A stretch of DNA of 22,300 bases from a virus: positions 1 through 22,300 of the IMG/VR virus record IMGVR_UViG_3300031695_000039. One strand, given 5' to 3'. Under the pieces are notes generated by a model. It was not told the DNA's origin. It ran no database searches and saw nothing but the letters and a program-made list of their open reading frames with translations. Below are positions 1-10,700 of the stretch, piece by piece; position 1 is the stretch's first letter; every line of letters begins with the position of its first letter. A program made the translations under genes and the position numbers.

Positions 1-1001
1 CTGCGATGGCCGCGATAGTTAAAGAGGTAACCACTAGACTTTAGTTCAAGTGCAACAGGCTGCAGATGGTAGCCAGCCTGTGACAAGATGAGCCATGACC
101 CTTTGGACATATCTAGCGCAGCGATGGTGCTGATGCGCGTGACCTTGCCTGCTTCTTCTTTAGGCTCGTACCGCTTTGGGTATCGACGTGCAATACGACG
201 CACAACGTTTTCGGCAAGGCTGTGTACGGACTGAGGGATTCGATAAGATTGTGACAGGGTTTCTGAACTGCCGGGCAAATTAATAAACTGATCAACATCC
301 GCACCCGCCCATCGATAGATGGCTTGGTCATCATCCCCCGCACAATACATGCGCGTGGATTTAGCATCGATAGCGTGAGCGATCTCCCACTGCAGCGGGC
401 TCAAGTCTTGCGCCTCATCTAAGAAGCACAGGTCAAAGTGTGGGCAGTAGTATTCAGCACCTTTAGCAAACTCTGACAGCATGTCGGTGAAGTCGTATAA
501 GTTCATGGTGTCTTTATATTTCTTCAGACATTTATCAACGTAGTTAACGGTGTTCCAATCTTGCTCGATGTTGCTGATGTTGTACTGCTCTCTCAAAGAT
601 ACTTTCCTAAGTCTAGCCAAGTTGATCAGTCCAAGGACAGGATCGTTGCTTGCCACCATTGAGGGGATGTCATCATCAAAGTTAGAGGCTTTGTTGCCAC
701 CTAGCTTGACACCGATTGATCGGCTCAGTTCTCTGAAGTTAGACTCCTGCATCACCTGCTCTGAGCGTATGTCTGTCATAGTCAGCGCAAGAGAATGTAG
801 TGTGCGAAAATGTATTAGATCCGTCTTAGGGTCTAGGTTAAAGCGTTCGGCTGCTCGGTCTCGAGCTTCGTTTGCGGCTTTACGTGTGAAGGCTAGGAAG
901 GCGATTGAGTGTGGGTGAGTGCCCTTCTCTAACGCTTCGTCCACCATGTTGAGCAGGGTGGTTGTTTTACCTGTGCCGGGAGGTCCAAATATTCTAAACA
1001 T
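1..1001 (-). CDS. UvrD/Rep-like superfamily 1 DNA helicase (partial, C-terminus off the window)
   Basis: This is a DNA-dependent ATPase that should unwind duplex DNA during phage replication or repair. The reading frame is open from an ATG at 1001 to the window edge, giving 333 residues without a stop. SF1A motifs appear in order: Walker A GPPGTGKTT (residues 6-14), motif Ia AFTRKAANE (37-45), TLHSLAL (67-73), Walker B DEAQD (195-199), motif III GDDDQAIYRWAGA (222-234) and motif IV SYRIP (252-256). Motifs V and VI should lie beyond base 1. A strong ribosome site AGGAAGGAG (1012-1020) precedes the start. The start overlaps the end of the HTH gene by 8 bases, so the two are probably co-translated. 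It is the last visible gene of the leftward replication operon. Family assignment is firm; the exact role (replicative accessory versus recombination) is inferred. Confidence 0.93.
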   Translation of the reverse strand, partial: MFRIFGPPGTGKTTTLLNMVDEALEKGTHPHSIAFLAFTRKAANEARDRAAERFNLDPKTDLIHFRTLHSLALTMTDIRSEQVMQESNFRELSRSIGVKLGGNKASNFDDDIPSMVASNDPVLGLINLARLRKVSLREQYNISNIEQDWNTVNYVDKCLKKYKDTMNLYDFTDMLSEFAKGAEYYCPHFDLCFLDEAQDLSPLQWEIAHAIDAKSTRMYCAGDDDQAIYRWAGADVDQFINLPGSSETLSQSYRIPQSVHSLAENVVRRIARRYPKRYEPKEEAGKVTRISTIAALDMSKGSWLILSQAGYHLQPVALELKSSGYLFNYRGHR

Positions 1002-1161
1002 CTTTAGACTTCTCCTTCCTGTAAATTTGCTGAACTCTCTGCTTCGAGATGCCAAACCATTTGGCCACTGCGGTCATCGTCATAAGGCGCTCGTCAATCA
1101 TCATGACGATCTCTGCGTTACGACGCCTGCCGTATTCTGGTCCTGTGATATCTTCTACCAT
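994..1161 (-). CDS. Small helix-turn-helix protein (55 aa), sigma-70 region 4-like
   Basis: This 55-residue protein contains a predicted helix-turn-helix in its C-terminal half: AVAKWFGISKQRVQQIYRKE at residues 31-50. The pattern resembles sigma-70 region 4, where the SKQRVQQI-like helix reads DNA in the -35 box. The N-terminal half is short and charged (GRRRNAEI). It is probably a DNA-binding regulator or a replication accessory, but the target is unknown. Its ATG at 1161 shares one base with the primase stop codon (TAATG), and its end overlaps the SF1 helicase start by 8 bases. It therefore sits as a translationally coupled bridge between primase and helicase. The frame is intact and uses both neighbours' overlap signals, which argues it is real despite its size. 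Confidence 0.75.
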   Translation of the reverse strand: MVEDITGPEYGRRRNAEIVMMIDERLMTMTAVAKWFGISKQRVQQIYRKEKSKDV

Positions 1162-2699
1162 TAGAAAGGTGCCTTATAGTCGTTACCGAACTTCGGTGTT
1201 TCTATGTCAATGTCAGACGTGTCAAACGAAGGGATCTGCCATACGCGTACAGCGCGGCCTTTGATCTTCAATACAACACTTGATCCATTGATGTCACGCA
1301 GTCGCTGCGCGATGCGGTGAGACTTGTACTCAAAGAACTTATTCTTCTTCAAGAAGTTCTCAAAGTCTTTCAGTCTAAAGTAAGTAATGCCTTGGTCTTC
1401 GTCAGTCCAAGGGCGACGCAGTAATATCTCTTCTTTATCCTGTGCAACCTGTAGGTGGCGACAGAACTCTTCAAGGTAATCATAGAACTGACCGCTAGTG
1501 CTGGCATCTACTGCAACTTCAATGATGGCACTCTCGTTATCCTTCATCTCATTCAACAGCGTACTGATGCGGCTTTCCCATTGCTGCTTCGCAACTGAGC
1601 GAGGCATCAAGTTTAACTGCTCCATGCAAGCCTTTTGGAACGTCATCTGATTCATCAACGCTTCAGTGTCCATCTCTAATGGTTCGCCATTCACGTCCAT
1701 AAACCACACGGGAGGCGTAGAGTTATACTTGCGAAGGTTAGCTACACTAGCACCTGACACTGCAGCACCAACACCAAACTTTCGAGTACGGCATAGGTCT
1801 TTGTTACAGTGTGAATTGATAGGTGAGTCGCTGCACTTATAAGCATATTCTTTTCGCTCAAGCTGCTTGGCCACGATGTTCACTTCGTTTAACGGAAGCG
1901 GTGGCGCAAGATACTCCATGTTGTACTTGAGTATCTCAGCCTGCCAGCTATCAGGAAAAGCCTTGCGTAAGTAAACCCCAATGTTAAACAAGCCATTGTT
2001 ACGACCCCCCTCACTGATACCATCCGTACAAATTATCTGTAAGCACGGCGGTCCATCTTGCAAGAGTTTGGTTTCTTTGCCACCAATTACTTGCAGCTTT
2101 AGGGCTTCTTCAGGGTTCTGAACAAACTTAGTATACAACTCTACAAACTCGTCTAATGTTGCCGAGGTGCCATCGTCTAGGAATGCGTAGCGCAAACCTT
2201 CCTCATGGTCGTAGTAAGGTAGATTAAGGAAGTTACCCACATCACCTCTGTCCAAATGCAGCTTGATCTGCTTTGGGAATATCTCGCTCTCGCCATAGCC
2301 CAATGCTGCGGCCATCGCCTTTAAAGCTCTCTGCATATCTTTAGCTTCGATCCACTCCGAGGTGAATAGAAAGCAGTGTGCCCCGCCCGATTTAGATCGG
2401 CATATAACGAGGGGTAATTTCATGCGGCGGACTTTATCCACCAGCAACTTATGATCGAGTGGGTACTGGTCTATGTCGATACAGCCCCATTTGCAACAGT
2501 TGTCTTCATTGATCGGTATGATGCCCAGACCATTGCCAGTGCCTAACAGATGGTTTTCCCAAAGCTGCTTGGTCTGTGGTTCGCGAAGAACGCCAGCCTT
2601 GCCTTGAGCCTTGCCGCTTGCACTCGTTTTTTCTATCTTGAAGTAACCGTGCGCTTCCTTCAGACCATCAAAGATGGCCATAAACTTGTCTAATGACAT
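1161..2699 (-). CDS. Archaeo-eukaryotic-type (TOTE-like) DNA primase with zinc-binding segment
   Basis: This 512-residue protein should synthesise primers for phage DNA replication. Catalytic features of the AEP superfamily are visible: the metal-binding IDID (residues 74-77, D75 and D77), the SKSGGAH motif (102-108) and GNFLNLP (155-161). A helical PriCT-like segment with RNN (233-235) follows, then a Cys/His cluster (C289, H297, C298, C303, within HCNKDLCRTRKFGVG) that probably binds zinc. The last 180 residues are not recognised. A GTG at 2741 in the same frame would add 14 residues, but it falls inside a terminator hairpin, so the ATG at 2699 is preferred; the ribosome site there (GGGGG, about 6 bases upstream) is only moderate. 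It lies downstream of the probable ssDNA-binding gene and is coupled to the HTH gene by TAATG. Confidence 0.86.
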   Translation of the reverse strand: MSLDKFMAIFDGLKEAHGYFKIEKTSASGKAQGKAGVLREPQTKQLWENHLLGTGNGLGIIPINEDNCCKWGCIDIDQYPLDHKLLVDKVRRMKLPLVICRSKSGGAHCFLFTSEWIEAKDMQRALKAMAAALGYGESEIFPKQIKLHLDRGDVGNFLNLPYYDHEEGLRYAFLDDGTSATLDEFVELYTKFVQNPEEALKLQVIGGKETKLLQDGPPCLQIICTDGISEGGRNNGLFNIGVYLRKAFPDSWQAEILKYNMEYLAPPLPLNEVNIVAKQLERKEYAYKCSDSPINSHCNKDLCRTRKFGVGAAVSGASVANLRKYNSTPPVWFMDVNGEPLEMDTEALMNQMTFQKACMEQLNLMPRSVAKQQWESRISTLLNEMKDNESAIIEVAVDASTSGQFYDYLEEFCRHLQVAQDKEEILLRRPWTDEDQGITYFRLKDFENFLKKNKFFEYKSHRIAQRLRDINGSSVVLKIKGRAVRVWQIPSFDTSDIDIETPKFGNDYKAPF

Positions 2700-2715
2700 T
2701 GCTTGCCCCCATACG

Positions 2716-2743
2716 AAAAAGGGCAGGGCTTCATGCCCCACCC
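2716..2743 (-). terminator. Rho-independent terminator between the ssDNA-binding gene and the primase gene
   Basis: On the minus strand a nine-pair stem, GGGTGGGGC with GCCCTGCCC (two wobble pairs), closes a five-base loop ATGAA and is followed directly by five T residues (2716-2720). It lies 17 bases past the stop of the upstream gene and 17 bases before the primase ATG. Since no promoter is visible in between, it probably trims but does not abolish transcription into the primase and helicase genes. Confidence 0.8.
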
Positions 2744-2759: not shown

Positions 2760-3539
2760 TTAGAACGGTTCTGCTTTACCGCTTACGCCATCGTCATCCG
2801 TATGTTTAACAACAACGTCACCCGTGGTGATGCTGTCAGCAAAAGCTTTGGCGCGAACGTATAGTCCTGCTTCAGCAATGGGGCCCTCACAGGACATCTC
2901 CCAACCGTGCCATGACCCTTTAGAGTTTTCCTCTTGTGTGGTCTTGAGGTGATAGATGTGTGAGAAGCGTGGTGGAGTAAATGGACCCTTTGCACCTTGC
3001 ATGGACCGTGAGGCCATGATGCTGTTCCACTTACGCGACTTCTTTAACTGCGTAGATTTCATGGCAATCAAAGCCGTCTCAAAAGCACCATCGTCACCTA
3101 ATAGGATCACGAAGTGCTGATGCGTTTCTTCGATGTATTCACCGCTGCCGTCTGCGACATAATCTTTGTTGTCTTCAGTGGAGCGTTGAGTTTCAGGACG
3201 TACTTCGCCCGGCTCATAAATAGCAGTCGGCGCACCGTTGCCAGAACCACGAGGGGCCCATTGAATAAAGCGACGTTGATAAGCGCAGGGGATTACGCTA
3301 ATGCCATCTTTACCTTTGTACACCATACCTGTGACGGTGTTGTATATGTCACCTTTACGGGCGACTTCGTTTTCATCCAAGATGGGATCGTTACCCGACA
3401 ACACTTTTAGGAAGGGTAATGCTAAATCATCCTGCCCCATGTTTTCCATGCCCTGACCCGCATCGGCCTCGAACATAGATGGATCAAATGCTGCTAACTC
3501 AGTGGACTTCTTTGCTGCGACTTCTTTATTTTGTGACAT
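2760..3539 (-). CDS. Probable phage ssDNA-binding protein (259 aa)
   Basis: The gene belongs to a protein type I associate with phage replication modules, having a LPFLKVLSGNDP motif (residues 41-52) and an IPCAYQRRFIQWAPRG segment (83-98). It is rich in predicted beta strands, and the C-terminus (HTDDDGVSGKAEPF) is acidic and ends in phenylalanine. That tail is reminiscent of T7 gp2.5, where an acidic aromatic-ended tail contacts other replication proteins. Hence I infer binding of single-stranded DNA, but no catalytic or OB-fold signature is provable by eye. The ATG at 3539 is chosen because it sits 2 bases after the upstream stop and has GGGAAG just before it; the longer reading frame back to 3581 would lie inside the neighbouring gene. 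A terminator follows immediately. Confidence 0.6.
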   Translation of the reverse strand: MSQNKEVAAKKSTELAAFDPSMFEADAGQGMENMGQDDLALPFLKVLSGNDPILDENEVARKGDIYNTVTGMVYKGKDGISVIPCAYQRRFIQWAPRGSGNGAPTAIYEPGEVRPETQRSTEDNKDYVADGSGEYIEETHQHFVILLGDDGAFETALIAMKSTQLKKSRKWNSIMASRSMQGAKGPFTPPRFSHIYHLKTTQEENSKGSWHGWEMSCEGPIAEAGLYVRAKAFADSITTGDVVVKHTDDDGVSGKAEPF

Positions 3540-3541
3540 GT

Positions 3542-4120
3542 TTACTTCCCTTTTTTGATTACTGCGCGTTGACCTACCCAAGCCCCAAACAACTCCATGG
3601 GGAACTCCTCACCTGCTTCACATCGTTCTTTCACAAATGCCCGTAGGGTCTGTGGATGAACTTCAGTCTTCTGTTGAGGTATAAAACCCTTGCTCTCTGC
3701 AAACGCAGAAAATGCACTGGCTTGATCATCCTCACCACGACCGAACTGACACAAGACTGTATTCTTAATGATGTCATCATGATGGTGGTCTCGTAACCAC
3801 TCAAAAGCGGAGGGACGGTTTTGTACTAGTATAGATGCACCATACGTTTGTTTGACCTCAACGGTCGAACCGTCTTCTAAGGTGAAAGAAGCTATACCTA
3901 TTTCTGCAAGCATTGCAGGCATCTCTTCATCGGTGAGTTTCTGAAGGTCTTTCTTCGACTCCTTGAGTGATTTCTCAAGCGCCTCAATAGATCCTTCTTT
4001 GTCTCTGATTTGGCGGGCCAAGCCTGCTACTGAAGTCAGTCCAGTTTGGTCCAATCGTTCAACAGAGGTGGCTTTCGTTGCTTCAAAGTCCGCCTCCATT
4101 AATTTTGCTAAGTCTTCCAT
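3542..4120 (-). CDS. Conserved phage protein with N-terminal coiled coil (192 aa), function unknown
   Basis: I do not recognise a biochemical function. Residues about 35-65 (DKEGSIEALEKSLKESKKDL and beyond) form a likely coiled coil rich in Lys, Glu and Leu. A compact beta-containing middle follows (SFTLEDGSTVEVKQTYGASI, 78-97), then WLRDHHHDD (108-116) and a C-terminal helical part with TLRAFVKERCEAG (158-170). It is the first gene of the leftward operon, directly upstream of the probable ssDNA-binding gene (2 bases between stop and next start), so a role in early DNA metabolism, perhaps as its partner, is a reasonable inference. The start at 4120 is supported by AAGGAG (4129-4134) eight bases upstream. 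Translation is probably strong because of this site and the leader hairpin. Confidence 0.8.
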   Translation of the reverse strand: MEDLAKLMEADFEATKATSVERLDQTGLTSVAGLARQIRDKEGSIEALEKSLKESKKDLQKLTDEEMPAMLAEIGIASFTLEDGSTVEVKQTYGASILVQNRPSAFEWLRDHHHDDIIKNTVLCQFGRGEDDQASAFSAFAESKGFIPQQKTEVHPQTLRAFVKERCEAGEEFPMELFGAWVGQRAVIKKGK

Positions 4121-4142: not shown

Positions 4143-4161
4143 AAGGCTCCTTTCGGGCCTT
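4143..4161 (-). promoter_or_regulatory. Leader hairpin with GAAA tetraloop in the leftward 5' untranslated region
   Basis: The leftward transcript would contain AAGGC-CC-GAAA-GG-A-GCCTT: five plus two pairs, one bulged A and a GNRA-type tetraloop. It starts about 12 bases after the predicted transcription start and ends before the ribosome site at 4129-4134. Such leader stems commonly protect phage mRNA from decay. It is not followed by a T-run long enough for termination. Confidence 0.5.
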
Positions 4162-4187
4162 GACAAATGCAGATAATATCTTATATC
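4160..4187 (+). promoter_or_regulatory. Sigma-70-like promoter for the rightward SNF2-SleB operon
   Basis: TTGACA (4160-4165) is followed after 16 bases by TATATC (4182-4187); TAATAT upstream at 4174-4179 is poorly spaced. Transcription would start near 4194, giving a leader of about 40 bases before the ATG at 4234. The -10 shares bases with the leftward promoter, so both cannot be occupied at once. Confidence 0.62.
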
Positions 4188-4207
4188 CTACACGACTTAC
4201 ATGTCAA
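4180..4207 (-). promoter_or_regulatory. Sigma-70-like promoter for the leftward replication operon
   Basis: On the minus strand, TTGACA (4207-4202, perfect -35) is followed after 16 bases by TATAAG (4185-4180, five of six matches to the -10 consensus). Transcription would start near 4173 and lead into the gene that begins at 4120. The -10 overlaps that of the opposing promoter. Confidence 0.68.
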
Positions 4208-4233
4208 GCAGTTATTAGAAAAAGAGGACAATT

Positions 4234-5682
4234 ATGCAGAACTATCAATACGAGACGACACCGTATGACCACCAGCGAGTTGCATTAGAAGAATCGTGGT
4301 CCGCGGAGTACTACGCACTATTCATGGAGATGGGAACGGGTAAAACCAAGGTAGCTATAGATACGATGGCTATCTTATGGGAAGCCGAAAAGCTTAAAGC
4401 GGTGCTGATTATAGCGCCCAAAGGGGTGTACGACAACTGGGTAAAGGGTGAGATACCCATCCACTTGCCCAAGCGTATACCGCGTCAGATATGTCGCTGG
4501 ACACCCTCTAAAACAAAGAAGTTTGAAGAAGAATTAACAGAGTTTATTGTCAGTAAAGAGTCGTTCTTAAAGATATTTGTTATGAACGTTGAGGCGTTCT
4601 CTACCAGTAGAGGCACTGATGCCGCCACAGCTTTCCTATATCAGAACCCTGCTAATATGATCGTGGTTGACGAGTCTACGACAATAAAGAATCGTAAGGC
4701 TGCACGGACCAAGAACATTATGTCGCTGCAAAGGCGGTCTAAATACCGCCGTATATTGACGGGGTCACCTATTACTAAAAGTCCTATGGATTTATTTAGT
4801 CAGTGTGGGTTTCTTGCAGAAAAGTCGCTAGGTTTTAATAGTTTTTATGCGTTTCAGGGACGGTATGCAAATATCCAACAGCGGACCATGGGGCACCGAA
4901 GCTTCCAACAAGTGATGGGTTATCGTCGGCTAGACGAGTTATCTGAGAAGTTAGAGTGTTTTAGCAATCGCGTGTTAAAGGTGGACTGCTTGGACTTACC
5001 ACCAAAAGTTTATACTCGTCGAGACGTTGAGCTAACGCCTGAACAAGATAAGTTATACCGCCAAATGAAGAAGCTTGCATTGGCTAAACTAGACAGTGGT
5101 GAGCTTGCTACAACGGCTAGTGTATTGACTCAGATCATGCGCCTGCAACAGATATGTTGTGGACATCTAATGCCTGATGATGGGCCTATACAGTTGATAA
5201 AGAACAATCGCCTAAACGAGTTATTAAGCCTTGTCGATGAGATGCAAGGTAAGGCCATCATATGGGCTACCTATACGCATGACATCTTGCAGATATCAAA
5301 AGAACTAAGTGAGCGTTTTGGCCCTGATTCGGTGGCCACGTACTATGGTGATACGGAGCAAGACGACAGGCAAGAGATTGTTAATGACTTCCAAGATATG
5401 GAAAACCCTTTGCGGTTCTTTGTGGGCCAGCCTCGAACAGGCGGTTATGGCATCACGTTGACGGCGGCAACAACGGTGATCTATTACAGCAACAGCTACG
5501 ACTTGGAGATAAGACTACAGTCCGAGGACCGTGCGCATCGAATTGGTCAGACTAATAAAGTGACCTACATCGATTTGGTCTCGCCTAACACGATTGATGA
5601 AAAGATTTTGCAGGCTTTACGCAGTAAGATAGACATTGCAGGACAAGTACTCAAGGAAGACACCAAGAGTTGGTTACGTTAA
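4234..5682 (+). CDS. SNF2-like superfamily 2 DNA helicase/translocase
   Basis: This 482-residue ATPase should translocate on double-stranded DNA, remodelling protein-DNA complexes or assisting replication and recombination. SF2/SNF2 motifs are all present: YDHQRVALE (Q-like motif, residues 11-19), Walker A MGTGKT (33-38), IIAPKGVYDNW (Ia region), DEST in place of DEAH/DEGH (146-149), LTGSP (175-179), GYGITLTAATTVIYYSN (motif V, from 404) and QSEDRAHRIGQ (motif VI, 429-439). It is a minimal helicase core with no extra targeting domain, short compared with cellular SNF2 proteins but usual for phage versions. The ribosome site AGAGGA (4223-4228) precedes the ATG. It is the first gene of the rightward operon, opposite to the primase operon, and shares a divergent control region with it. 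Confidence 0.94.
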   Translation: MQNYQYETTPYDHQRVALEESWSAEYYALFMEMGTGKTKVAIDTMAILWEAEKLKAVLIIAPKGVYDNWVKGEIPIHLPKRIPRQICRWTPSKTKKFEEELTEFIVSKESFLKIFVMNVEAFSTSRGTDAATAFLYQNPANMIVVDESTTIKNRKAARTKNIMSLQRRSKYRRILTGSPITKSPMDLFSQCGFLAEKSLGFNSFYAFQGRYANIQQRTMGHRSFQQVMGYRRLDELSEKLECFSNRVLKVDCLDLPPKVYTRRDVELTPEQDKLYRQMKKLALAKLDSGELATTASVLTQIMRLQQICCGHLMPDDGPIQLIKNNRLNELLSLVDEMQGKAIIWATYTHDILQISKELSERFGPDSVATYYGDTEQDDRQEIVNDFQDMENPLRFFVGQPRTGGYGITLTAATTVIYYSNSYDLEIRLQSEDRAHRIGQTNKVTYIDLVSPNTIDEKILQALRSKIDIAGQVLKEDTKSWLR

Positions 5683-5698
5683 TTATAAGGAAGTAATG

Positions 5699-5986
5699 AT
5701 GAGTTTAATATTTAAGCCACGGATTGCATACCATTTTGGAAGTGCAAAGTTTTTGGCAGCTAAATCTAAAGCCAGTAATTCTCACCAAGAGCAGTACACA
5801 TGGGAAGAAAAAGAGATTGAATTCTTGATTGAATTACGCGCTTTAAAAGTGTCTTTTTTGCAATGTGATAAGATGTTAAAAAGGAAGCAGGGTAGTTGTT
5901 CTAACTGCATTCAGTCTCGTAATCTTTACGAAAAAATAAACAGTAAACGTCAGGACCTTATACAAGGAGTGTTAAAAGATGATTAG
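5699..5986 (+). CDS. Small putative HTH/Myb-like protein (95 aa), function unknown
   Basis: The protein is not firmly recognised. Residues 35-90 show the spacing of a small helical DNA-binding domain: W35 with EEKEIEFLIELR, then a second helix around LQCDKMLKRKQ, and a third around RNLYEKINSKRQDLI. This loosely resembles Myb/SANT-type or GcrA-type helix bundles. Three cysteines (56, 67, 70) are present but no clear metal-binding pair pattern is complete. The N-terminus is basic. Two tandem ATG codons occur at 5696 and 5699; the second is preferred because AAGGA (5687-5691) is then 7 bases away. The gene starts 16 bases after the helicase stop and its end overlaps the SleB gene by 8 bases, so the three genes form one operon. 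A regulatory role is an inference. Confidence 0.7.
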   Translation: MSLIFKPRIAYHFGSAKFLAAKSKASNSHQEQYTWEEKEIEFLIELRALKVSFLQCDKMLKRKQGSCSNCIQSRNLYEKINSKRQDLIQGVLKDD

Positions 5987-6398
5987 TGCAGCAATATTAT
6001 GTTTGGCCACCAATTTGTACTTCGAGGCTCGTGGAGAGCCTTTAGCTGGCCAATTAGCCGTGGGCTACAGTGTAATGAATAGAGTAAGTTCGCCTCGCTA
6101 CCCCGACACTGTATGCGGTGTTATTTACGACGCTCAATTTAACTCTTGGGACCCGATCAATCCTATTAGGCATCGTTGCCAATATTCTTGGTTTTGTGAC
6201 GGGGTTGCTGACGATATTGATCCTACCGACCATGCTATGGTTGAAGCTAAAGCGTTGGCTAAAAAGATTTATTTTGGAAGGGTGGTGGATGTGAGCGAGG
6301 GTGCTACGCACTATCACAATACGACGGTTAACCCGTATTGGGCTTCACAACTTACAAAAGTATTGTCTGTAGGGTCGCACCTTTTCTATCGGTACTAA
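5979..6398 (+). CDS. SleB-type cell wall hydrolase (Hydrolase_2 family)
   Basis: This 139-residue enzyme probably cleaves peptidoglycan and serves in host lysis or DNA entry. Nearly the whole chain is the catalytic domain: NLYFEARGEP (residues 12-21) carries the glutamate (E16) expected to be catalytic, AVGYSVMNRV (27-36) is the conserved following helix, QYSWFCDG (68-75) and GATHYH (108-113) with NPYWA (118-122) complete the family pattern. No signal peptide is evident; the hydrophobic start belongs to the fold, so export would need a holin or virion packaging. The start at 5979 overlaps the previous gene by 8 bases and has AAGGAG nine bases upstream. It ends 4 bases into the convergent gene on the other strand without a visible terminator. 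Confidence 0.92.
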   Translation: MISAAILCLATNLYFEARGEPLAGQLAVGYSVMNRVSSPRYPDTVCGVIYDAQFNSWDPINPIRHRCQYSWFCDGVADDIDPTDHAMVEAKALAKKIYFGRVVDVSEGATHYHNTTVNPYWASQLTKVLSVGSHLFYRY

Positions 6399-6677: not shown

Positions 6678-7790
6678 TTAGCGGTTTATGTCTTCAAATA
6701 GACGACCGATACCTTGCGACTTTACCACGCCACCTTCGGCAAACGAAGATAAACCCGACTTGCCTGCAAAGCTAAACATGGGGCTATAATCAGTCATATA
6801 ACTAGCATACGATTCGGGTATAACTTCTTCTATGGGCGGTATGACAGGCGGTAAAAATGGATTGTTACTGTCGCCAGCCCCTTGTTGGTTAGACTGGGTA
6901 AGGGACCTTTTCATTTCCGTAGGGAGCATTAAAAATTGCGCCTCAGACATGTTCTCTGGACGCATAGCGTTTAATTGGGCGTCGTTTGCTGTATTACCTG
7001 TCTCATTGTTAATGAAAGCATTAGATAGTTGATTATCCATCTGAGGTTTACGAGCTAATTGCACTCTTTCTTTTTCAGACATCATAGGCCAATTAGGGTT
7101 TGACGCTTCTTGCCTCATGTATTCTTGTTTGGCAACGTCATTCATGCCGTACACACTCTGCTGTGCAAAGTCACCTAGCGGATCAAACTCACTATACGCC
7201 TTTAAAAAATCACTTACGGGATTGTCTTCACCCACTAAATTTGCGGCACCACTTAACAGGCTACCGCCCGTAAGGTTACCCATTAAACCCCTAAACATGG
7301 TGTCAGGTGCATTTGCAGGGTAATAACTAGTACCGCTACGACCTTGCGTGAACTGAGTCGGTGCAGTACGAGTATCTACGGAAGCGGGTGCTTCCATCAT
7401 TGCTTTGTATGACGCTATACCTTGTTGGTTTTGTTGTTGCTGTTGTTGTTTCTTTTGTGCTGCTTGTTGCTCTGCTTGTTGTTTCTTTTGTGCTGCTTGT
7501 TGTGCTGCTTGTTGTGCTGCTTGTTGCTCTGCTGCTGCTATTTGCGCTTGCATATTCCTATTAGCCGTAGCTTGTGCTACTGCTGCTTGTTGTGCTGCTT
7601 GCGCTTGCTGTGCGGCCACGGCCTGTTCTCTCAACCTCTGAGCTTGCTCCGCTGCAAATCTTGCCCTTCCGTCACCATTACCTCGGTCATTAGCATCTCT
7701 TCCACCGCTAGGAGGAGAGTAACCGCCCCGCCCGTCATTACCACCCTGACTACCCGCACTCGGGTGGCCACTTCCTCTTCTATATGCCAT
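6678..7790 (-). CDS. Q/A-rich phage protein with C-terminal GGVV motif (370 aa), probable virion component
   Basis: The chain has three parts. Residues 1-45 are Gly/Arg/Asp/Ser-rich and disordered. Residues about 46-123 are almost only Ala, Gln, Lys and Glu and should form a long helix, ending in a QQQQQQ run; its DNA contains tandem repeats (a 33-base duplication and three perfect 12-base units). The remainder is Asn/Met/Pro-rich with a C-terminal FAEGGVV (350-356) and a closing GIGRLFEDI. That GG motif also occurs in the 1047- and 572-residue proteins, linking it to the virion block. No enzymatic motif is seen. The ATG at 7790 shares a base with the stop of the upstream gene (TAATG), and AGGAGG lies nine bases before it. 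A structural role is inferred. Confidence 0.75.
   Translation of the reverse strand: MAYRRGSGHPSAGSQGGNDGRGGYSPPSGGRDANDRGNGDGRARFAAEQAQRLREQAVAAQQAQAAQQAAVAQATANRNMQAQIAAAEQQAAQQAAQQAAQKKQQAEQQAAQKKQQQQQQNQQGIASYKAMMEAPASVDTRTAPTQFTQGRSGTSYYPANAPDTMFRGLMGNLTGGSLLSGAANLVGEDNPVSDFLKAYSEFDPLGDFAQQSVYGMNDVAKQEYMRQEASNPNWPMMSEKERVQLARKPQMDNQLSNAFINNETGNTANDAQLNAMRPENMSEAQFLMLPTEMKRSLTQSNQQGAGDSNNPFLPPVIPPIEEVIPESYASYMTDYSPMFSFAGKSGLSSFAEGGVVKSQGIGRLFEDINR
7447..7526 (-). repeat. Tandem codon repeats within the Q/A-rich gene
   Basis: A 33-base unit is duplicated (matching bases 33 apart, for example C at 7452 and 7485) and encodes QQAAQKKQQ-type blocks. It is followed by three perfect 12-base units TGCTGCTTGTTG (plus-strand sense) at 7491-7502, 7503-7514 and 7515-7526, each encoding AAQQ-type residues. 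All unit lengths are multiples of three, so copy-number change keeps the frame. Confidence 0.85.
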
Positions 7791-10700
7791 TACGCCATTC
7801 CTCCTAAACTACCTATTCCAGACATTAAATCACGATCTTCAGGGAAGAGCGCGGCAAATCTTTGACGGTCCACGGGGCCCGATGCGGCCACTTGCGGTGC
7901 GGGCTGCAAAGGTTGTGGAGCCACGGGCCGCGGAGCCTGCTGCATCTGCTGTGAAGGCAATTGCATCCGCTCTACGGGTGGTAATCGTACAGGGACCGCG
8001 CTCTGCGGATCTGCGGTAGGCACTTCTTCTACGGAATCATCAGGTGCTGACCCCGAAACCACACCTTCTGTGCCTGTTCTTCTAATGGGGTTTAAAATGT
8101 AGTTTCTTAAGAACGCATCAATCACTTCCGCTGCTAAAGCCTCTTTTCCTCTTTGGGTCTTACCCGTTTGAAGTACTTTTTTAAGCAATACGTCGTTACT
8201 AAGAATAATAGCCACACGACTAGCTTGAAGAGACTGAGGTAGCTCTGCCATGTATTTTTGAGCTAGTCCTTGACCAAAAGCAGCACCACGTCCCGCAGCA
8301 ATTAAATCACCCGATCCGCCACCACCAAACATTTGTCTAAGGTTAGTACCTGCGATTGATCCACCCATAGCAGCTATTATTTTAACGCCTTCCCCAATAT
8401 CTTCAAAAAAGGCATCGGTCTGGCCTGCTTTAGCATTTGTGTTAAAAGCCTGTATTTTGCCCATTTCTTGCAAAAACTTTTTAGTATCTTTAAGCTGATC
8501 TTCCGTTATAAGATCATGTTTTAACATGAAATTTGCAACAGTTTGACCTTTGCCATTAGGGTGTTTTATAAAAAGTTTGTTGTAGGCCACATCGGGTCTA
8601 AAAGCTGCACCATTGGCTTGAACTTCAAAAATAGAGTCATAAATGGCAGTACGCAGACCTAGTTGTATGTCCGCTTTAGTGTACATATCAAATTGATTAG
8701 GGCTTAGTGGAGTAGTTACGGTAAAACCATCTTCTCCAATATTATCAATCATGTTTGTATATTTGGTTAGCGTGTCAAAAGGTGTATCTGAGTCCAATGC
8801 TTTTGTTATTGCAGTAGCAGGGTTTGCGGTCTTGTTTGGAAGAACTTCGTACAGACCTTTAACCCCTTTAAGCTGCGCTAACTCTGTTTTTGTTGCTACT
8901 CTTGTAGATTCCAACAATGTTTTGGCTTTTTTAACGTCGTCTAAATCACTTTTAAGTGCAGGAAATAAATCCAACAACCTTTTGTTGTTTTCGTTGTTTT
9001 TCCATGTAGACAGTTTGCCAACATTTAGCGTTCCATCGGGGTCTAACATGTCGGCCTTCATGGTCCTTAACAAAGTATCTTGTGAGGATCGCATCTGAAG
9101 GGCCCCGTCCATGGCGTCTTGTATGCGTTCTTTTAAATTTGGAACAGACGCAATAGCGTCTTCGTTTCGTCCATACCATGAACGCATTAAAGCCATGTCT
9201 AATACGCCCGTGGTAGGATCTATGTTCTTATTGAAGTCTTCTAATAAGGCCGCGCCTGTCTCTCGTGTAGCAGCGGAAAGTCCCGATATGTCACCTGTCG
9301 CTTCTTTAAGAGGCGCTTCAAGAAGGTTTGTAAGGGATTGAGTAACTTGGAACTGAGCTATCCCATCCAACATTTTTGCTCTAGAAAAAGCTTCTTTTCC
9401 TTGCATAAGGTTATTGGCTAAAACTTCGATAGGGATTTTTAATGCGCCATTTCCTTTAGTACCTAAAACGTCTCCCGCATAAGCCCTAGTAAACACATTG
9501 TTAAAGGCTCTGGAGTAATTTCTAGCGGTATCATAAGCCTTATTAAAAGCTCCAAACTGGGGGCTGTCTAGATCGGCTAAAATAGCATTAGCCATTTGAG
9601 ACGCTATGCGGGATTCATCTGCATCATCGGCTGATGCAAACTTTTTAGATGAGTTTAACAATCGGCTTCTTATTCTCTGAAGCTCGCTTGCATTTACTGC
9701 ACCTGCTACAAATTCTACTGGAGGAACGGCTTGAAAAGCTTTAGCTTGTATGTCTTGTGCCGAAATCAAATTTGCGTGTGCCTTTAACAAAGACGATAAA
9801 TCTTTAGATTCTTGTGTTACCGTTAACTTTCCAGAAGGTCTTGAACTCATTGAATCTTGCCAATTAGGTTCGGGCTCTAAGGCGTCTTTGGCTCTCTCTT
9901 TAAGTCGTTGTACTATTTGAGAGGTGTTAAGCCCATCTTCGGCAAATTGATCAAGTAATTCGTCTAAAAAACCGTCGTTGTCCGTTCCAGATACTTTAGT
10001 TAAATATTTATTAACCTCCTTTTGCTCGGGTAGCGCGGGTAACACCGTAGGAGCAGTTTCCGCGGGAGGAGTAAGACCCAGTTCTTCTGAGGTGCGTATA
10101 ACGTATTTATTTATAAATCTTAAATTGGCATTGCCTAAGATTTCGTCTTGTATCTCAATAGGGTAATCACCAACGAGTTCTTGCCATTTAGTTATAAAGT
10201 TTGGAACATTAGTAGTTGCACCTTGTTCATCTACAAACTCTGTTAGCTCTATGTTTTTTGGAATGCGCTTCCACAGAAGTTCTTCTTCTTTTCTGCCCGA
10301 CCCATATTGTCTTTGTAGCAAAGTAAAGATGTCATTGGCGGCCTCTAAATCTATGTTTTCGCCTTCAGGCCTAACTTGCCGCATGGACTTTTGCATCCTA
10401 GAGACAGCACTTGCTAATTGAGAGTCTAAAGCCCCTTCAAACAAACCTGTTTGAATCAAAGCCGCATCACCTAATGCTTCTTGCGAACCGTCCGCATACA
10501 TTGCCAACAACGCACGACGTAATGCGCTTACTGCATCAGTCATTGATTTCTTGGCTCCGCTAGCCGCTGCCTCGGGACCTGCATCCATAAACTGGTGTTG
10601 CAAAGCCAACAAAGTAACACTAGCTGATCGAGTGGCCGCATCTAACTCTATTTGATTACCATCTTCGTCAACAAGAAACCTATTAAAAGAAGAATCGTTT

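Follow-up and report, generated by a model that had tools for sequence, protein, structure and literature searches.

A probable compact bidirectional promoter with a conserved geometry at a divergent operon junction of marine phages

The divergent junction and its promoter elements

The DNA analysed here, referred to as the window, is a 22,300-nucleotide stretch of IMG/VR virus record IMGVR_UViG_3300031695_000039. Near its left end, two operons point away from each other. The leftward operon is led by a DUF7307 gene and carries replication genes, while the rightward one begins with an SNF2-type helicase gene, followed by a small ORF and a SleB-like hydrolase gene (Table 1). The first-pass annotation had proposed that facing promoters with a shared -10 region serve a leftward replication operon and a rightward SNF2 operon, and both the gene families and the divergence of the two operons in relatives agree with this proposal. 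Within the leftward operon, a gene for a 55-aa helix-turn-helix (HTH) protein is situated between the primase gene and a downstream helicase gene. The related phage records MN698239, MN698241 and MW574966 begin at the same divergent junction. Further downstream in the window, long Cys/Leu-rich ORFs at 7422-7865 (+) lie opposite 6678-7790 (-); these are probably shadows of the Gln/Ala repeats in the minus-strand gene and not genes themselves.

Table 1. Features of the junction and the flanking operons (positions in the window unless a locus is named)
Feature	Position	Strand	Basis
55-aa HTH protein	994-1161	-	position and sequence counterpart of sigma-70 region-4-like proteins in relatives
Primase, AEP-TOTE, phrog_21866	1161-2741	-	family search
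Pam3_Gp34-like protein, phrog_2402	2760-3581	-	family search
DUF7307 / Pam3 gp33-like, leading gene of leftward replication operon	3542-4120	-	family search
Stem-loop near predicted 5' end of leftward mRNA; 2-bp overlap with left -35	4143-4161	-	covariation
-35 TTGACA, rightward (SNF2) promoter	4160-4165	+	sequence; conserved in relatives
11-bp perfect palindrome AGATAATATCT, overlapping ancestral leftward -10	4171-4181		
TATTAT, leftward -10 of N29 relatives; here 23 bp from -35, out of register, relic	4173-4178	-	
-10 TATAAG, leftward promoter in window's clade, 16-bp spacer	4185-4180	-	sequence
N18 alternative -10 for leftward promoter, TAAGAT	4183-4178	-	promoter scan's choice
-10 TATATC, rightward promoter, 16-bp spacer	4182-4187	+	sequence; TA step conserved in relatives
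N18 alternative -10 for rightward promoter, TATCCT	4184-4189	+	promoter scan's choice
Stretch containing clade-specific 7 bp (inner distance 36, not 29)	4189-4201		
-35 TTGACA, leftward (replication operon) promoter; TGTCAA on plus strand	4202-4207	-	sequence
AT-rich, UP-element-like tract upstream of leftward -35; doubles as SNF2 leader and ribosome-binding site	4208-4233	-	
SNF2-type helicase, leading gene of rightward operon	4234-5682	+	family search
Small ORF, true start probably internal	5636-5986	+	
SleB-like cell-wall hydrolase (Hydrolase_2)	5979-6398	+	family search
Stand-alone sigma-70 region-4-like proteins of relatives	L368:176-355, L369:89-283		

The 113-bp gap between the DUF7307 and SNF2 genes contains two inward-facing TTGACA hexamers with 36 bp between them. 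The rightward one is preceded by C, which gives CTTGAC, the alphaproteobacterial form. The -10 hexamers match the E. coli consensus at 4/6 (TATATC) and 5/6 (TATAAG) positions, and neither carries the final T. They share four bases (4182-4185), an overlap of the kind by which Warman and Grainger recognise bidirectional promoters. The hexamer pair, the gap, the -10 elements and the four-base overlap had all been placed exactly in the first-pass annotation. If 7 bp are assumed from each -10 to its start, transcription is predicted to begin at ~4194 (+) and ~4173 (-), 21 bp apart. Thus, the promoters face each other in their layout, yet the predicted transcripts diverge.

From the window sequence alone, such a facing pair is only moderately improbable. 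When dinucleotides were shuffled across the whole window, TTGACA/TGTCAA facing at 20-50 bp arose in 18 of 300 rounds; shuffling the 113-bp spacer produced it in none of 20,000. The first 12 kb hold 10 promoter-like sites against 17.6 in shuffles, and two of the three best-scoring among them are the facing pair. Sites of the form TTGAC-N17-19-TATA number only a few per genome.

Conservation and natural variants of the pair

A scan of viral contigs with the SNF2 and DUF7307 proteins gave 169 distinct loci having readable upstream sequence. The first-pass annotation had suggested comparing this spacer in related phage genomes, and the comparison bears the arrangement out. The divergent order, SNF2 on the plus and DUF7307 on the minus strand, is kept in 162 of the 163 distinct loci that carry both genes. 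When the -35 pair was counted automatically with at most one mismatch, the inner distance was 29 in 123 of the 169 loci, 36 in eight and 28 in seven; all eight loci with a distance of 36 belong to the clade of the window. The remaining loci, mainly the most distant relatives, have another inner distance or no pair. Among distinct short spacers, 57 of 80 have the distance of 29 (N29), and the left TTGACA is present in all 57, again with one mismatch allowed. Four more loci have more than one mismatch and were missed automatically; L038 and L063 (TTGACG/AGTCAA), as well as L094 and L096 (TTGCGA/TGTCAA), were placed at 29 by hand. In the right -35, the GTCAA core is conserved, and the first base of TGTCAA, i.e., the sixth of TTGACN, is free.

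The constraint on spacing is evident from the fact that the inner length is kept while the letters of the spacer vary. Among 29 non-redundant N29 relatives, 15 flank lengths occur on the right and 13 on the left. In the same set, spacer positions 24-27 carry <0.2 bit each and are near random, and the core ATAWWATC...TATA is strongly conserved. Hexamers matching the -10 in at least four of six positions at N16-18, as for a sigma70-type promoter, are found on both strands in 28 of the 29; shuffled inner sequences gave 4.9 +/- 1.9, with a maximum of 12 in 2000 rounds. A TA step is present on the minus strand in 29/29 (N16 or N17) and on the plus strand in 24/29 (N16), though the AT-rich core offers several -10 registers, and N8, N9 and N14 score too. 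In the N29 form, the leftward -10 occupies offsets 8-13 and the rightward -10 offsets 17-22, each within the spacer of the other promoter. These -10s are 3 bp apart, adjacent without overlap, with a predicted start distance of ~28 bp.

The pair was also sought independently of the proteins. Among the 82 instances of CTTGACA-N29-TGTCAAG listed from viral contigs, 35 fall at this junction; most of the other 47 lack good -10s on both strands. A degenerate form of the pair is seen at the junction in 8/8 long relatives, and a single further hit away from it is put down to chance. Once SNF2 identity drops below ~55%, as in the most remote relatives, the pair is missing or altered. It was not found at the junctions of DSL-LC04 and the pelagiphages HTVC023P and HTVC027P; the last of these, the nearest studied phage, has a rightward TTGAC promoter-like site without the pair, and the main text of its transcriptome paper does not mention the homologous genes. 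At the 023Pt_psg01 junction, a pair faces across 25 bp. The depth of conservation, within a large and highly diverse phage group, shows that the promoter pair is functional, and the two-way start site is almost certainly real.

The natural variants of the core inform on its history. In the SNF2 tree, the N36 loci group together as one clade (support 99), marked by a 7-bp insertion on the right side of the core. Seven bp is exactly the distance from TATTAT to TATAAG; the insertion shifts the old leftward -10 out of register, so that TATAAG comes to N16 and the spacing is restored. The -10s thus came to overlap by four bases within the clade of the window, and the N29 form is ancestral. In L007 and L037, the 29-bp core is inverted relative to all other N29 relatives (in L007, the core ahead of the SNF2 gene at 5001). 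The flanks are not inverted, and the flanking hairpin described below keeps its usual orientation. The inverted cores score -25.8 and -31.2 bits as read and +24.0 bits when reversed, and both promoters are again at N16. Active inversion of the promoter was considered and rejected, as both inverted sequences fall in one clade (support 100; SNF2 95% identical), and one old event is the reading adopted. In L038 and L063, some 600 bp ahead of SNF2, an HNH-like gene of the homing endonuclease type (assigned by eye) separates SNF2 from the pair, which is kept. In the L097-L101/L197 group, SNF2 has moved and now stands last in the leftward replication operon (988-8054 in L197); both -35s stay beside DUF7307 although the plus direction no longer has SNF2.

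The leader hairpin and the small sigma-region-4-like protein

The two directions do not look alike. Close to the predicted 5' end of the leftward mRNA, a stem-loop is supported by covariation in 33 distinct leaders, in which 90% of cells pair. Compensatory changes on both sides of the stem number 20, far above the 4.6 +/- 1.8 of shuffles, which establishes the hairpin as real. A terminator was also considered for this element; its U tract is short (UUUAA) and it was unlisted by the scan, and it is therefore read as a 5' leader hairpin, for which protection of the mRNA would be the likeliest role. A conserved TTTAAYNACGAA(A)GGAG leader comes after the hairpin. In the ~20 bp upstream of the -35s, the relatives have 68% AT on the leftward side against 50% on the rightward one (Wilcoxon p 8e-6, indicative only since the sequences are related). 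On account of this AT-rich upstream tract and the 5' stem-loop on the mRNA, the leftward promoter is probably the stronger of the two.

The first-pass annotation had also suggested that one of two small HTH proteins, encoded in the two operons, may tune the balance. For the leftward protein, the relatives lend this indirect support. The Sigma70_r4 Pfam model scores 35.6 bits for the L368 protein and 26.3 for that of L369, against a cut-off of 24.1, and the best match of the L368 protein among solved structures is region 4 of RpoD/SigA. The 55-aa protein of the window scores 19.9 bits, below the cut-off, with HTH_23 slightly better; its group has the motif SKQRVQQI where the relatives' proteins have TRERVRQI. 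Of the 123 sufficiently long loci, 97 carry such a gene, in almost every case 2.6-3.2 kb along the leftward operon. For the rightward small ORF, no Pfam or PHROG family match was found.

Sigma region 4 is the domain that reads TTGACA. Its small counterpart was compared with the spacing of the pair in loci with SNF2 at least 58% identical. Loci with the gene comprise 61 N29, four N36 and three unscored cases, of which two are N29 by eye and one is the rearranged L197; loci without it comprise two N29, seven N28, one N26 and two with no pair. The left hexamer is TTGACA in 65/65 loci with the gene, whereas 7/10 without it have TTGACT or TTGACC. In the loci lacking it, the primase gene abuts the helicase gene, or an unrelated 91-aa ORF takes the place. 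The protein thus tracks the 29-bp spacing, but the loci share ancestry, and the class with 28 bp represents only about three branches, so this phylogenetically confounded link is a lead and not a test. It is conceivable, though unlikely, that this phage mini-protein reads TTGAC, with the symmetric -35 pair as its double target, and competes with or bridges the host sigma factor to set the direction.

Competition, rival readings and known systems

It is probable that the spacer acts as one compact bidirectional promoter for a sigma70-type RNA polymerase, most likely that of the host. A T7-like RNA polymerase (PF00940) was found neither in the window nor in six long relatives, though the control for this search was silent too. 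The DUF7307 protein had no match when bacterial genomes were scanned. On the predicted use of the elements, a polymerase with sigma region 4 on the left TTGACA would open the right-hand -10 and transcribe SNF2, the small ORF and SleB; one bound the other way round, on the right TTGACA, would open the left-hand -10 and transcribe the replication operon. As each -10 lies inside the other promoter, overlapping its -10 in the clade of the window, only one polymerase would be bound at a time, and the direction would be an either/or event. Every base pair between the -35s lies within at least one -35/-10 spacer, which may explain why the distance is locked. The earlier claim that polymerase cannot hold both promoters at once fits the overlap of the predicted footprints and the conserved geometry; mutual exclusion between the directions is likely on these grounds. 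Competition between the two promoters is plausible, and it is favoured by both -35s being perfect TTGACA. The further idea of a switch without a repressor goes further than the observations. Nothing points to bistability or switching, and mutual exclusion alone would set a ratio. Features of a lambda-type switch were looked for at the junction: there is no multi-copy operator, the junction genes encode a helicase and a DUF7307 protein and not repressors, and the small HTH gene lies some way off, 3 kb along the leftward operon.

The main contender is that two divergent promoters overlap without functional consequence and do not compete, which is somewhat unlikely. In five cases from E. coli, loss of a -35 left the opposite RNA unraised (PMC12825309), and the -10s of the window are weak, as this reading would have it. 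However, both -35s here are consensus, which is the regime where an improved -35 brought competition in the same study (PMC12825309), and unlinked promoters need no locked distance of 29 bp. The 41-bp pseudo-palindrome TTGACA-N29-TGTCAA could instead serve primarily as the operator of a DNA-binding protein, dimeric or paired, the promoter likeness being secondary or shared. Its near symmetry and fixed spacing would suit this, as would the internal 11-bp palindrome AGATAWTATCT, swapped in some relatives for another of 11 bp (GTATAWTATAC), the invertible 29-bp core, and the association of the sigma-region-4-like HTH protein with N29/N36 and the left TTGACA. Against this, the right TTGACN is not constrained at its sixth base, and a 7-bp shift, which is no helical turn, is tolerated exactly where the -35/-10 spacing is restored; both -10s are conserved at N16. 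A regulon of GATAWTATC operators was searched for and dismissed, as the copy in the promoter is the only one in each of five genomes (the window and four relatives). An operator is a distinctly improbable account of the element.

A replication-initiation or recombination site, such as an origin, a resolvase site or an invertible element, is the least credible reading and very improbable. Replication genes adjoin the AT-rich core, the core is inverted in one clade, and the start of related phage records at the junction may be only an annotator's choice. That inverted state is confined to the one clade, with no sign of recurrent flipping. Moreover, the conserved letters are those of the -35 and -10 elements, and the pair stayed where it was when the HNH-like gene was inserted downstream of it.

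A bidirectional promoter, the preferred reading, belongs to a known kind of element. Prokaryotic promoters with shared or overlapping -10s have been described (PMC10268837, PMC12825309); their divergent starts are most commonly 18 bp apart, with 10 and 23 bp common too, and their -35s are generally poorly conserved (PMC10268837). The five natural E. coli examples were too weak to compete until a -35 was improved (PMC12825309). The phage element resembles these promoters of Warman and Grainger in its short AT-rich core, its predicted divergent RNAs and its room for one polymerase, and in the window also in the overlap of opposite-strand -10s and a predicted start distance within the usual range. 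It differs in that both -35s are perfect, in that the ancestral -10s lie in each other's spacer with starts predicted further apart, and in that the geometry is conserved across the lineage.

Overlapping divergent promoters are also a part of the phage lambda switch (PR/PRM), and in E. coli, the bio operator with BirA lies over the facing bio promoters. The bioA/bioB promoters, one of the five pairs in PMC12825309, likewise overlap between divergent operons; unlike them, the phage element is read without an operator or regulator. Overlapping divergent promoters are reported for the switch of plasmid pLS20 as well (PMC4207663). Lambda and pLS20 share with the phage element the close or overlapping divergent promoters between two modules of a mobile element, and differ in that no repressor gene flanks the phage element and no operator set was found there. 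The alphaproteobacterial housekeeping consensus is given as CTTGAC-N16-23-TATNNT and CTTGAC-N17-cTATat (PMC4943231, PMC2573895). The phage element has CTTGAC on both sides with a TATAY-type -10 about 17 bp on; what sets it apart is that two such promoters are interleaved head-on. No report of this element was found in the literature on face-to-face overlapping phage promoters. The kind of promoter is known, and its locked geometry is unusual.

The question of competition at bidirectional promoters is young and has received little study. At the phage junction, natural selection has kept such a promoter with both -35s at consensus, and its geometry has stayed locked while the letters of the spacer were randomised. 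It also comes with its own natural variants, namely the 7-bp insertion, the inverted core and the 28-bp class. This set of sequences is therefore suited to asking when and how the competition of polymerases balances two phage operons.
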